From Candidatus Bathyarchaeota archaeon (lineage in GTDB: Archaea; Thermoproteota; Bathyarchaeia; TCS64): DNA of 37,566 nucleotides. The position numbers and the translations under genes are program-made. Positions 5,806 to 15,938 of this stretch are shown here, piece by piece. A model generated the notes under the pieces. That model worked only from the letters and a program-made list of their open reading frames with translations. It was not told where the DNA came from and did no database searches. Numbering within the stretch: position 1 is the first letter of the stretch; each line of letters starts with the position of its first letter. The DNA lies in NCBI GenBank assembly GCA_017883585.1, contig JADGNG010000057.1, positions 1 through 37,566 on the forward strand. The letters are read 5' to 3'.

Positions 5806-6123
5806 ATGCACGAGAAGCTCGCGGCCAAGATAGATGAGTTCAAGGCTATGGGGATACAATTCACCTTCGACGGCTTCGCCGTCGCCGACTTCCTCACACA
5901 GCTCGAAGCCGTCGCAACTATCAACTTCGTCGACTTCAAGGGGAGCCGCCTCTCCGTCTGGGTCGGCGACATTAAGGGCATCCCGAAGGAGGTCATGGCA
6001 CTTATCCCCGCCGCCGGCCTATTCGGTGCTATGGCCTCCGGCGCTGAGGAGACCACTGAGGGCTACAAGCTCTGGTTCGAGTGGATGCTCCCCAAGGACA
6101 TCTATTATCAGAAACAAGTCTAA
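5806..6123 (+). CDS. Uncharacterised 105-residue protein
   Basis: I do not recognise this protein. It is soluble-looking and acidic at the N-terminus (MHEKLAAKIDEFKAMG), with a glycine- and alanine-rich hydrophobic stretch near 65-80 (ALIPAAGLFGAMASG) too short and polar-flanked to be a confident membrane helix. Third codon positions are strongly C-rich, as in neighbouring real genes. It begins 25 nt after the MFS remnant, so it may once have been the downstream gene of that transporter. No cysteine pairs, nucleotide-binding loops or signal peptide are seen. Confidence 0.7.
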   Translation: MHEKLAAKIDEFKAMGIQFTFDGFAVADFLTQLEAVATINFVDFKGSRLSVWVGDIKGIPKEVMALIPAAGLFGAMASGAEETTEGYKLWFEWMLPKDIYYQKQV

Positions 6124-6269
6124 AACCTCGGGGGTGATGGCATACCCCGGATAACCCGTTTTCAAGTCTTTCCAACCCAATCAAGCCATAAAACTGCCCC
6201 GTTCACAATCCGATCTACGTAAATGAAGCACATTTTTGCTACCGAGACGCCCCTCTTCACAACCTAACA

Positions 6270-6390
6270 TTTTTATGGAAACAAACAAACAACCCTATCG
6301 GTGCCTATGGTGTCCGGTGACTACCAAATCTAGCCGAAACACTCAAACCTCACCCGACACCAAGATTCTAGACCCAACCGAGGACCATAG
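6270..6390 (+). promoter_or_regulatory. ileS promoter and long leader with an 8-codon upstream ORF
   Basis: A box A (TTTTTATG, 6270-6277) predicts transcription from about 6300, giving a leader near 90 nt, long for this region where most starts lie within about 10 nt of the predicted transcript end. An ATG at 6307 opens an ORF that reads MVSGDYQI and stops at TAG (6331-6333), so its last sense codon is isoleucine (ATC). That ATG is where a near-leaderless start would be expected. It is in the ileS frame, but two TAG codons separate them, the second directly before the ileS ATG. No closer box A was seen before 6391. A regulatory role is inference. Confidence 0.45.
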
Positions 6391-9300
6391 ATGACCTTCC
6401 AACCCATCGATAGTAAAGTCGACGTAGCCGCCTTGGAGCGAGAAGTACAAAAGCTCTGGATTGAGACCCACGCATTCGAGAAAAGGCGCAGTCTCAATGC
6501 GGGCAAACCCAAGTGGAGCTTCATCGACGGACCCATCACCGCAAATAACCCTATGGGCGTTCACCATGCTTGGGGTCGCACTTACAAGGATCTATGGCAA
6601 CGCTACTGGGCCATGCGCGGACGAGACGTCCGTTACCAGAACGGATTCGACTGTCAGGGACTATGGGTAGAGGTTGAGGTCGAGAAGGAGCTAGGCTTCC
6701 AGACCAAGCGCGACATCGAGGCCTATGGAATCGCTGAGTTCGTCGTTAAGTGCAAACAGAGGGTACTTAACTACTCCGCCCGCCAGACGGAGCAGAGCAT
6801 ACGCCTCGGATACTGGTGCGACTGGAACAACCCCGACGAGTTACGCAAACTCGCTGAGGCCATGAACAACCCGATGCAACAGACCACATACATAGGCTCA
6901 TACGGCCCCATCCACGGCACCGCCGAGTACATCGTTGGCCAGCTAGGCATGCAACAGGTCGGTGGAAGCTACTACACCCTCAGTGACGAGAACAACTACA
7001 TGATCTGGACCGCTCTAAAAAGCTGCTACGACCGCGGCTGGATATACCGAGGGCAAGACTCGATGCCCTGGTGCCCACGCTGTAGCACGGGCATCAGCCA
7101 GCACGAGATAGTCACCGAGGGCTACAAGGACATCACTCACACAACCGTCTTCGTAAAGTTCCCACTAAAAGGCAGGGAGGGCTCGCTCCTCATCTGGACG
7201 ACCACTCCCTGGACTCTAACGAGCAACGTCGCCGTCGCTGCCCACTCCGACCTCACATACGTCAAGGTCAAACACGGCGACGAGATACTGTACCTCAGCA
7301 AGGGCGCACTTGTCACCGTCTTCACCCAGAAGGGCAGTTACATAGTTCTCAAGGAGCTGAAGGGCAGGGACATGCTCGGCTGGACCTACACGAGCCCATA
7401 CGACGATCTCGAGGTGCCCAAGAAGCTCGGTGTACCCGAGGCCCACCGTGTCATCATGTGGGACTCCGTAGGCGAGACCGAGGGAACCGGTCTCGTCCAC
7501 ATCGCCCCTGGAGCCGGCAAGGAAGACTTCGAGCTGGGAAAGCAGAATAAGCTCCCCTCCCCCGCGCCACTCGACGAGTACGGTGTAATCACCCCCGGCT
7601 TCGGATGGCTCACAGGGACACATGTCTATAACTCCGCTGAACCCATCTTTGAGGACCTCAAAGCGAGAGGATTCCTCCTTCGCACCCAGAAGATCACCCA
7701 CCGCTACCCCGTCTGCTGGCGCTGCGGCTCAGAGCTCGTCTTCCGCCTCGTCAACGAGTGGTTCATCAACATGGGGGAGAAACTCGACAAGCCATACGAG
7801 GAAGTAACGGAGGCCGAGAAGGACAAGAGCCTCCGCTACCAGATAATGGACAGCGCCTGCAACGTCCGATGGGTCCCCGAGTTCGGCCTCAAACGCGAAC
7901 TCGACTGGCTCCAGAACATGGACGACTGGATGATCTCTAAGAAGCGTTACTGGGGCCTCGCCCTACCCATCTGGCAGTGCAGCTGCGGATGGTTCACAGT
8001 CATAGGAGACAAGGAGGAACTCAAAAGCAAGGCGATCAGCGGCTGGGACGAGTTCGAGGGGCACAGCCCGCACCGCCCATATATAGACTCGGTGAAGATA
8101 CGATGCGTGAAATGCGGCGGGGTCGCAAGCAGGGTCCCAGAGGTGGGCAACCCGTGGCTCGACGCTGGAATAGTCGGCTACAGCACCCTCCGATACCGCA
8201 GCGACCGCGCCTACTGGGAGAAGTGGTTCCCCGCCGACTTCATCACCGAGTCCTTCCCCGGCCAGTTCCGAAACTGGTTCTACGCTATGCTCGCTGAGAG
8301 CACCATCCTCGAACGCAGGACCCCCTACAAAGTCTGCTTAGGGCACGGCTCTGTCCTAGCCGAGGACGGACGAGAGATGCATAAGAGCTGGGGCAACGCA
8401 ATCTGGTTCGACGATGCAGCCGAGACTATGGGCGCGGATATAATGCGTTGGATATATTGCGCCGCCAAACCAGAGAACGACGTCCTCTTCGGCTACACAA
8501 AGGCCAACGAAGTGAAGAGGATGTACTTCATGACACTTTTCAACGTCTACAACTTCTTCACCATCTACGCCAACCTCGACAAGTGGAACCCCGACCAGCA
8601 GCCAAGGAACCTCCCGCAGCTCGATCACTGGGTGCTGTCACGACTCAACACCCTCATCAATAGCGTCACCGTCTCCCTCGAGAACTATGACGCGGAAACC
8701 CCGACGCAGGATCTTGAACGCTTCGTTGACGCCCTTTCCAAGTGGTACGTAAGGAGGAGCAGGCGCCGATTCTGGAAGACAGAGGCGGATGACGAGAAGA
8801 GGGCGGCGTACGCTACACTCTACAGGTGCTTAAAGTCAGTCATTTTACTCATGGCGCCATTAACCCCCCACATCAGCGAGGCTATGTACCAGCGCCTCGT
8901 CCGAACCGTTGAACCGGGTGCCCCCGAGAGCGTCCACCACAACGACTGGCCCACAGTCCAGGAATCCGAGATAGACGAGGGACTGATGGCTGAGATGGAC
9001 CTCGCGATAATGGCGAGCAGCCTCGGGCGCGCCGCGAGGGCGAAGAGCCAGACTAAGCTCCGCCAGCCGCTCAGCGAGGCCATAGTGGTCGCCTCGAAGG
9101 AGCAGCTACCGATAGTCAACAAGGTCGCGTCACTCATCCGCGAGGAGCTCAATGTCAAGGAGGTAAAGGTCACAGGCGAGCGCGACATCCTCCAGAGCCA
9201 CATCGCTAAGCCACTGCCCCGGCTACTTGGGAAGAAGCACGGTCGAAACTTCATGGCCGTCGCGGACGCCATCAGGGCGATGACGTCAGAACAGACCGAG

Positions 9301-9723
9301 ACACTTGCCGGAGGAAAAGCCATCACGCTCAACGTCGGAGGAAGCCCCGTCGAGGTCCTTCCCGAGGAGATCGAACTAGAGTCGAAGCCCATCGAAGGTT
9401 ACTCGATCATGGAGGAGGGCGGCCTGCTCGTCGGCGTCAACACCGCGATCGACGAGTCGCTCAGCAGCGAGGGCCTGGCGAGAGATATTGTCCGCCGTAT
9501 CCAATCACTCCGCAAGGAGGCCAATTTCGACATCAACGACCACATCGAGACATACTACCGCAGCGACCCTGAGGTGGTCGAGGTATTCCAGGAGGAGGCC
9601 GATTACATCAAGGCAGAGACCTTGTCCGAACTGCTCAAGGAGGGTGTTCCCCCCGAGGGAGCGAAGACTGGTGCCTACGAGATGAGCGGCTTCCAGCTCC
9701 TCCTCGGTCTACGCAGAGTCTAG
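6391..9723 (+). CDS. ileS: Isoleucyl-tRNA synthetase
   Basis: This 1110-residue class I synthetase charges tRNA-Ile. The ATP-binding HIGH-type motif appears as NPMGVHHAWG (about residues 53-62) and the KMSKS-type loop as MHKSWGN (663-669), the variant pair found in one IleRS lineage rather than the textbook motifs. Zinc-type pairs are present at C228/C231 (CPRC) and C442/C445 (CWRC), and further pairs follow near QCSCGW and RCVKCG. The editing domain lies between them (LLIWTTTPWTLTSN). The anticodon-binding and C-terminal domains are complete. The ATG follows a TAG stop of the leader frame. It is single-copy in the window and has an unusually long leader. Confidence 0.97.
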   Translation: MTFQPIDSKVDVAALEREVQKLWIETHAFEKRRSLNAGKPKWSFIDGPITANNPMGVHHAWGRTYKDLWQRYWAMRGRDVRYQNGFDCQGLWVEVEVEKELGFQTKRDIEAYGIAEFVVKCKQRVLNYSARQTEQSIRLGYWCDWNNPDELRKLAEAMNNPMQQTTYIGSYGPIHGTAEYIVGQLGMQQVGGSYYTLSDENNYMIWTALKSCYDRGWIYRGQDSMPWCPRCSTGISQHEIVTEGYKDITHTTVFVKFPLKGREGSLLIWTTTPWTLTSNVAVAAHSDLTYVKVKHGDEILYLSKGALVTVFTQKGSYIVLKELKGRDMLGWTYTSPYDDLEVPKKLGVPEAHRVIMWDSVGETEGTGLVHIAPGAGKEDFELGKQNKLPSPAPLDEYGVITPGFGWLTGTHVYNSAEPIFEDLKARGFLLRTQKITHRYPVCWRCGSELVFRLVNEWFINMGEKLDKPYEEVTEAEKDKSLRYQIMDSACNVRWVPEFGLKRELDWLQNMDDWMISKKRYWGLALPIWQCSCGWFTVIGDKEELKSKAISGWDEFEGHSPHRPYIDSVKIRCVKCGGVASRVPEVGNPWLDAGIVGYSTLRYRSDRAYWEKWFPADFITESFPGQFRNWFYAMLAESTILERRTPYKVCLGHGSVLAEDGREMHKSWGNAIWFDDAAETMGADIMRWIYCAAKPENDVLFGYTKANEVKRMYFMTLFNVYNFFTIYANLDKWNPDQQPRNLPQLDHWVLSRLNTLINSVTVSLENYDAETPTQDLERFVDALSKWYVRRSRRRFWKTEADDEKRAAYATLYRCLKSVILLMAPLTPHISEAMYQRLVRTVEPGAPESVHHNDWPTVQESEIDEGLMAEMDLAIMASSLGRAARAKSQTKLRQPLSEAIVVASKEQLPIVNKVASLIREELNVKEVKVTGERDILQSHIAKPLPRLLGKKHGRNFMAVADAIRAMTSEQTETLAGGKAITLNVGGSPVEVLPEEIELESKPIEGYSIMEEGGLLVGVNTAIDESLSSEGLARDIVRRIQSLRKEANFDINDHIETYYRSDPEVVEVFQEEADYIKAETLSELLKEGVPPEGAKTGAYEMSGFQLLLGLRRV

Positions 9724-15555: not shown

Positions 15556-15649
15556 TGGTGCGGTCGCCGGGAATTGGACCCGGGTCACCAACTTTCCCCG
15601 AGAACAACTCGTGGGGGGCTGGCGTCCTACCAGGCTGGACTACGACCGC
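15556..15649 (-). tRNA. tRNA-Gly(CCC) with an 18-nt intron and encoded CCA
   Basis: On the minus strand a 7-bp acceptor stem (GCGGTCG/CGACCGC), D-arm, anticodon stem CCAGC/GTTGG and T-arm fold as a tRNA with discriminator A and genomic CCA (15556-15558). The intron lies at 15594-15611, between 37 and 38, with canonical bulge-helix-bulge geometry: CCCC pairs with GGGG, bulges are CA^C and AA^A, and a GAG/CTC hairpin closes it. The spliced loop is CCCCCAA, so position 33 is C instead of the near-universal U. T-loop position 55 is C. A TTTATC-type box A lies about 25 nt upstream (near 15670). Confidence 0.85.
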
Positions 15650-15820: not shown

Positions 15821-15913
15821 GGGCCTGTAGCTCAGCAAGGAAGAGCGTCGGCCTTTTAGGACCTTAGGGTCGAAGAGAGCCGTTGGTCAGGGGTTCAAAT
15901 CCCCTCAGGCCCG
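15821..15913 (+). tRNA. tRNA-Lys(UUU) with a 19-nt intron
   Basis: Acceptor GGGCCTG/CAGGCCC, D-arm GCTC/GAGC, and T-arm AGGGG/CCCCT with loop TTCAAAT are intact. The anticodon loop splices to CTTTTAA, giving TTT. The intron at 15859-15877 sits at 37/38; its bulge-helix-bulge is regular, with CTTT pairing GAAG (one G-U), 3-nt bulges, and a GACC/GGTC hairpin. The outermost anticodon-stem pair (27-43) is a U-U mismatch. CCA is not encoded. Box A candidates are TTAAATACC near 15780 and TTTATATT near 15745. The GfcR-like gene begins 25 nt downstream and may share the transcript. Confidence 0.92.
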
Positions 15914-15938
15914 CTCCGCCAGCTGGGGGATGAAATGA

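Follow-up and report, generated by a model that had tools for sequence, protein, structure and literature searches.

Layout and conservation of the ileS leader

The stretch of DNA studied here (the window) comprises positions 1 to 37,566 of contig JADGNG010000057.1 (assembly GCA_017883585.1) from a Candidatus Bathyarchaeota archaeon. It carries a gene for isoleucyl-tRNA synthetase (ileS), in whose leader lies a short open reading frame (ORF) ending in an isoleucine codon. This mini-ORF belongs to a conserved cassette that precedes genes for several tRNA synthetases and for threonine biosynthesis in the class Bathyarchaeia, and that probably directs +1 frameshifting at a codon for the amino acid concerned. 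The features of the locus are the following, where SD stands for Shine-Dalgarno and frame 0 is the frame of the mini-ORF.

6270..6277, + strand: TATA-box-like TTTTTATG, recognized by eye, about 25 nucleotides (nt) 5' of the inferred transcript start
6300..6303, + strand: SD-like GGTG, 6 nt 5' of the GTG at which the frame-0 mini-ORF starts, complementary to CACC of the 16S rRNA
6307..6333, + strand: frame-0 mini-ORF MVSGDYQI followed by a stop; relatives share the start at GTG 6310
6316..6319, + strand: internal SD-like GGTG, 5 nt 5' of the shift codon
6325..6330, + strand: proposed shift site CAA-ATC, with CAA in the P site and ATC, the hungry codon for Ile, in the A site
6317..6394, + strand: +1-frame leader ORF of 25 codons from GTG 6317; its TGA (6392-6394) overlaps the ileS ATG at 6391
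6308..6362, + strand: possible long-range stem of TGGTGTC (6308-6314) and GACACCA (6356-6362), fold z -1.16
6391..9723, + strand: isoleucyl-tRNA synthetase gene of an acquired, Chloroflexi-like type (TIGR00392, 700 bits)

Frame 0 of the window reads ATG (6307), GTG (6310), TCC, GGT, GAC, TAC, CAA (6325), ATC (6328) and TAG (6331-6333), and the mini-ORF sits 57 nt upstream of the ileS ATG. An earlier sequence-only reading of this locus had described an 8-codon ORF at 6307 whose final sense codon before TAG is ATC (Ile), and these coordinates were confirmed. Its placement of the start at 6307 was correct in that an ATG is present there, but the start of the relatives aligns with GTG 6310; ATG 6307 is an additional in-frame start in the window. 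The frame leading to ileS is the +1 frame and not the mini-ORF's own frame, which corrects that reading. The 3' end of the genome's own 16S rRNA is GGATCACCTCC, which contains CACC, so that GGTG can pair with it. A putative transcript start near 6300 fits the position of TTTTTATG, which by eye lies about 25 nt 5' of the GGTG at 6300, and most of the relatives' leaders have T-rich TATA-like stretches at a comparable distance.

The order sample consisted of 32 genomes, of which 24 have the window-type IleS and 23 had the 5' region in hand. Chance had been named as a real alternative for so short an ORF, and an alignment of related ileS leaders had been proposed as a check. The block was present in all 23 order leaders, with the Ile codon at a constant position, and the RTGNNNGGTGRNNNNMAAATY block occurs only once in the 1.6-Mb genome, in the ileS leader; this is more than chance would give. 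The frame-0 ORF is broken in two of the 23 leaders (G003 and G012). Frame-0 peptides of the order include VSGDHKI, VSGDRKI, VPGDRKI, VSGDYKILA, VSGDCKIR and VSGDRKINSSI, each followed by a stop. Like MVSGDYQI, the relatives' peptides have one Ile codon at this position, and in-frame insertions of 3, 6 or 12 nt occur between this codon and the stop. At the nucleotide level, GTGTCCGGTGAC is strongly conserved in family f1. A further match to the block, with two mismatches, lies by eye near an M16-type peptidase-like gene (G005:C117:3408-3427, L055) and is probably due to chance.

The layout of the cassette consists of an SD-like GGTG (mostly 5 to 7 nt before the start in the collected instances), an RTG start codon, an internal GGTG, a fixed spacing, xAA or UUU, and a single sense codon that begins with A; frame 0 stops 0 to 10 codons beyond it. 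The second G-GTG, seven bases past RTG, opens the +1 frame. The acquired-type IleS was matched in 56 genomes, and leaders were read only where the 5' end was present in the assembly. The motif was absent from 9 of 49 acquired-type ileS leaders (G244, G083, G254, G252, G251, G255, G086, G049 and the N-masked G111). In the 40 leaders with the motif, the +1 frame is open across the 71-151 nt of the leader and stops at -31 to +26 of the ileS start, most commonly at a TGA overlapping the ATG, as in the window. The +1 frame extended to the ileS start in 36 of these 40 leaders, which are not independent events because leaders of the same order are related, while 10.0 were expected from shuffled leaders. 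The corresponding numbers were 0 for frame 0 (9.7 expected) and 7 for frame +2 (10.2 expected). Outside the order, the +1 frame extended to the ileS start in 14 of 17 acquired leaders. Two of the cassette-free leaders (L072 and L076, of G254 and G255) have short ORFs upstream of ileS, MSRKI and MSKKI, which end in the Ile codon ATA before the stop.

A sequence model of 34 nt (R1) was searched in 256 class genomes and, with a cut-off of E ≤ 0.5, matched 152 of them. Sixty stronger matches were fetched, and the start codon, GGTG, xAA and ATY were kept in all 60; R1 and the search patterns select for the motif, so that conservation beyond the order sets partly reflects how the instances were chosen. 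Fusion of the +1 frame in these matches does not arise in this way; this frame encodes IleS in 58 of the 60 and a leader ORF in the other two (G053 and G213). Among 398 phylum genomes, all 33 matches at E ≤ 0.01 fall within Bathyarchaeia. In 19 further class genomes, whose IleS is about 32-38% like that of the window, the motif was found in four (G037, G036, G055 and G047), with the +1 frame fused to IleS in each.

The cassette before thrB, thrS and asnS

The same cassette precedes other genes. With the Thr codon ACA it stands before homoserine kinase (thrB) and threonyl-tRNA synthetase (thrS), and with the Asn codon AAC before asparaginyl-tRNA synthetase (asnS), where the site is UUU-A in family f8 and GAA-A in f18. 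These instances were found through secondary R1 matches and with a less strict pattern, in which xAA precedes any codon beginning with A. The genome of the window has a second cassette of its own, before thrB, with the peptide VMGDHQTA followed by a stop (contig 94:678-705, L311). Gene identities were assigned by NF002288 (homoserine kinase), NF003037/TIGR00457 (AsnRS), NF003068 (ThrRS) and TIGR00392 (IleRS), in matches on partial sequences of which most were below whole-protein cut-offs, as expected for fragments. The thrS of G004 is ended by the contig edge and was assigned by similarity.

The collected set comprised 142 instances from 118 genomes, leaving out the thrB of G016, whose start codon is lost, and the panB of G021. 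The codon in the A site was cognate to the amino acid of the gene in 141 of the 142: Ile before ileS in 108 of 109, Thr (ACA) before thrB or thrS in 23 of 23, and Asn (AAC) before asnS in 10 of 10. It was a sense codon in all 142 instances, in contrast to the UGA of release factor 2 (RF2) genes. The shift codon was AAA, CAA or GAA in 133 instances, TTT in 8 and TAA in 1. A start codon, alternating between ATG, GTG and TTG, was present in 141 of 142, and the internal GGTG stood 5 nt from the shift codon in 139, in a set whose membership is biased by the search patterns. The leader is real, conserved and cognate, and it is probably functional.

Matches to the xAA-A pattern occurred in 110 of the 256 genomes. 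Outside ileS, thrB, thrS and asnS, the panB match and six others were inspected with translations, and for L281, L282, L283, L288, L297, L302 and L306-L310 only the frame lengths were considered. Forty secondary R1 matches were also fetched, and those not assigned to these genes fall within other genes and, judged by eye, seem due to chance. An analogous xUU-U pattern gave 41 scattered matches in 28 genomes, among which no orthologous leader series was seen, and was judged to reflect chance.

Probable frame change in thrB and the alternatives

A protein search found 23 thrB genes in the order, 21 of them with the ACA cassette. In five thrB genes from three genera (G028, G030 and G031; G006; G011), the +1 frame has a TAG immediately ahead of the first residues of ThrB. 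This TAG, which lies between the +1 GTG and the enzyme, was seen in the reading of the leaders and, independently, in the protein search. Beyond it, the ThrB frame lacks ATG, GTG and TTG over a stretch that reaches 75 nt or more beyond the first position of the conserved SIANLGPGFD region. Therefore, ordinary initiation cannot make ThrB in these five genomes, and a +1 frameshift seems to be required for the five genes. Initiation at RTG with a +1 slip at GAA-ACA can, as the frames are read, yield ThrB in all five. The sequence-only reading had envisaged a ribosome stalled at the codon of the scarce amino acid. Mere stalling is insufficient here, because a stop separates the only upstream start codon from the enzyme and a frame change is needed.

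It is quite probable, given these comparative data, that the cassette is a device for programmed +1 frameshifting at a hungry codon, with a logic like that of bacterial RF2 but with aminoacyl-tRNA as the thing sensed. The sequences show conservation, frame architecture, cognate codons and genes in which ordinary initiation is excluded; from these we infer the slip, the influence of starvation on it and the coupling to the enzyme, as follows. The ribosome would initiate at RTG (6307/6310 in the window), placed by the first SD-like GGTG, and would read six or seven codons, past the internal GGTG, up to the single cognate codon (ATC 6328 in the window). The second GGTG, 5 nt before xAA, would hold or pause the ribosome. 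When aminoacyl-tRNA is plentiful, the codon would be read and translation would terminate at the nearby frame-0 stop. When it is scarce, the ribosome would wait, its P site occupied by xAA or UUU with an A as the next base, and then slip one base forward. The P-site tRNA would re-pair in the +1 frame, perfectly for AAA and with one mismatch for CAA, GAA and UUU. The hungry codon would have to begin with A because the P-site tRNA re-pairs one base forward, and codons for Ile, Thr and Asn do. In native ileS and thrB the +1 frame is that of the enzyme itself, and in the window ileS, asnS and thrS the +1 ORF ends at the start codon of the enzyme and would permit coupled translation. A shortage would then give more synthetase or biosynthetic enzyme, which is the fitting regulatory direction.

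Several observations, besides the conservation that is partly by construction, weigh against this mechanism. Re-pairing of CAA, GAA and UUU in the +1 frame leaves a mismatch, and the SD spacing is 5 nt in the cassette but 3 nt in the RF2 genes described in a section of PMC5009743. The ileS of G193 has ACC (Thr) and is the sole non-cognate instance of the 142. The ileS of G003 has GTT in place of the start codon, with the +1 GTG kept, and that of G012 has TAA at the shift codon, preceding Ile. The cassette is missing from the eight unmasked acquired-type leaders mentioned above. It is also missing from 15 of the 19 further class genomes, 14 of which have other kinds of leader, G046 being a possible variant. 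In G027, thrB starts at an ordinary ATG and is cassette-free, and the ThrB of G031 has an extra stop, TAA. In the thrB of G016 (L402), the start codon is lost (TCG) and the +1 GTG is now ATG, an ordinary in-frame start; this gene is a natural escape from the cassette. The cassette of G021 before panB (ketopantoate hydroxymethyltransferase; L314, G021:C2:3999) starts with MPGEYQTEPGFSR followed by a stop and has PanB in the +1 frame but a non-cognate Thr codon, and it is either a chance match or a further target. Finally, 140 of the 142 instances keep the +1-frame GTG, which is in principle available as a start for the enzyme or leader ORF.

This last point supports an explanation without frameshifting, in which translation of the enzyme or leader ORF begins at the +1 GTG, and the frame-0 mini-ORF, as an overlapping upstream ORF, competes with it or represses it. 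The loss of the device in the thrB of G016 accompanies the change of the +1 GTG to ATG, and the ileS of G003 retains the GTG after loss of RTG, as such a role of the GTG would have it. However, a start at the +1 GTG cannot express thrB in the five genomes with TAG after this GTG, and a model of GTG starts alone was rejected for this reason. The ileS of G041 and G247 likewise lack a start at the +1 position, where both have GCG, which favors a frameshift, although later starts are possible there. Ribosomes stalling at the cognate codon would moreover cover the +1 GTG and give less enzyme under starvation, the wrong direction, and competition between the ORFs leaves the slip-prone codon and the fixed spacing unexplained. 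An overlapping upstream ORF without frameshifting is thus an unlikely explanation.

Bacterial trp, ilv and aminoacyl-tRNA synthetase leader-peptide attenuators sense the amino acid supply through cognate codons in an upstream ORF. The cassette shares the cognate codon within an upstream ORF, and the sequence-only reading had seen attenuation logic in the ileS leader. This idea holds insofar as the leader appears to be an amino acid-sensing one with a cognate codon, and it is greatly strengthened by the leaders of thrB and thrS (Thr) and asnS (Asn), which have the same layout. Classical attenuation, in which a stall at the Ile codon alters folding and thereby transcription or ileS initiation, was not supported. 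Pairing of the RTG region with the downstream leader reached P < 0.05 in 9 of the 23 order leaders (P = 0.13 in the window). It is strong in G016, G022 and G028-G030, and apparently compensated in G007 (GTGCCC/GGGCAC). A long-range stem in leaders of f1 and f3 is suggestive only, and it is not general. In contrast to the bacterial attenuators, there is a single regulatory codon and not a run, no terminator-like site was found at 6100-6450 of the window, and the proposed output is a change of frame. Attenuation also gives no reason for several conserved features, namely the constant distance of the internal GGTG, the slip site (xAA-A or UUU-A), the early stop in frame 0 and the openness of the +1 frame, and it does not account for the fused thrB and native ileS or for the TAG genes. 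Classical attenuation is therefore improbable.

The strong nucleotide conservation of GTGTCCGGTGAC in f1 would also be expected of a conserved RNA or DNA element, such as a riboswitch, a T-box-like RNA or an operator, in which the reading frames are incidental. T-box riboswitches control aminoacyl-tRNA synthetase and amino acid genes via one cognate codon-like triplet and bind uncharged tRNA by RNA structure. In the cassette, unlike in the T-box, translation frames are conserved. A cmscan of the window at the gathering threshold gave no Rfam match except tRNAs, with the T-box model unmatched, and a T-box was rejected on this basis. ATG, GTG and TTG alternate at the start, the stops keep frame, the A-site codon tracks the amino acid of the gene, and openness of the +1 frame is far over expectation. 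A structured RNA or operator was rejected on the cognate-codon and frame results, and such an element is very improbable. As for the tRNAs of the window, ARAGORN reported at 15821-15914 a tRNA-??? with a two-base anticodon reading, which probably contains an intron and is also called a tRNA by Rfam, and a tRNA-Trp was predicted on the opposite strand at 15556-15649.

Some archaea decode TAG as pyrrolysine, but readthrough of the TAG of the five thrB genes by pyrrolysine or suppression, instead of its bypass, is the least credible explanation and was rejected, because the ileS of G028 and G030 and the thrB of G006, G028 and G030 end at TAG, which is an ordinary stop in these three genomes, and because readthrough would leave the frame-0 features unexplained.

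History of ileS and relation to known systems

Among the matches listed, the window IleS was 50-56% identical to many IleS of Chloroflexi/Anaerolineae and about 32-38% identical to those of most other Bathyarchaeia. Its named relatives are Candidatus Bathyarchaeota, the nearest being RBG_13_52_12 with 80% identity. Some of the +1 leader ORFs resemble the N-terminus of native IleS, as VAVKFKADSRRWSTLDYSLSETAK of G112 does in comparison with the native VAVKFKADSRRWLTLDYRPLELEQK of G055, and G112 carries both types of ileS. This likeness, together with the presence of both genes in G112, suggests that an ileS of bacterial origin took the place of the native gene body beyond the former start region, while the cassette stayed. 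A general amino acid sensor of Bathyarchaeia is fairly likely. It would work by +1 frameshifting at one hungry sense codon, for Ile (ileS), Thr (thrB and thrS) or Asn (asnS), with A-initial codons imposed by the chemistry of the slip site and the cassette kept upon bacterial replacement of native ileS.

The closest comparison is the autoregulatory +1 frameshift of bacterial prfB, which encodes RF2, as described in a section of PMC5009743. Both have a short frame-0 ORF with an early stop and, in native ileS and thrB, the gene body in the +1 frame. Both also have an internal SD sequence ahead of the shift codon, and the cassette would share with prfB a sensor based on slow decoding in the A site, and negative feedback (PMC5009743). 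Unlike prfB, which senses the release factor at UGA, the cassette would sense aminoacyl-tRNA at a sense codon, and its site is xAA-A or UUU-A instead of CUU-U. It is also archaeal, it serves several genes and amino acids, and in some genes, such as the window ileS, the +1 ORF would only be coupled to the enzyme.

In Escherichia coli under starvation, limiting aminoacyl-tRNA raises frameshifting at the hungry codon, according to a passage of PMC5009743. This frameshifting is incidental, whereas that of the cassette, if true, would be programmed and regulatory. On starvation-specific trans-frame proteins, a passage of this review from 2016 says that "no examples are known" (PMC5009743). Archaeal recoding cases named in a part of PMC8211752 are the -1 frameshift of fucA1 in Sulfolobus and presumed magnesium chelatase cases in Methanococcus. 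These cases are programmed, as that of the cassette would be, but fucA1 shifts by -1, and neither involves amino acid sensing or a cognate link. Among the titles and abstract starts returned by searches of open-licence PubMed Central papers, none described such a switch, which leaves room for a description elsewhere in print. A broad category of regulatory +1 frameshifting would include the cassette as a variant; as an amino acid sensor, we know of no described class that it fits.

If the mechanism is true, the annotated N-termini of ileS and thrB would change, and gene callers will label some thrB genes as 5' truncated or broken. The junction peptides can be predicted exactly from it, as can simple outcomes of reporter assays. 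Studies of frameshifting at starved codons have treated it as an error, and here it would be a built-in sensor for tRNA synthetases and threonine biosynthesis. The cassette would then represent an amino acid-responsive leader in archaea, within an abundant and barely cultured class.
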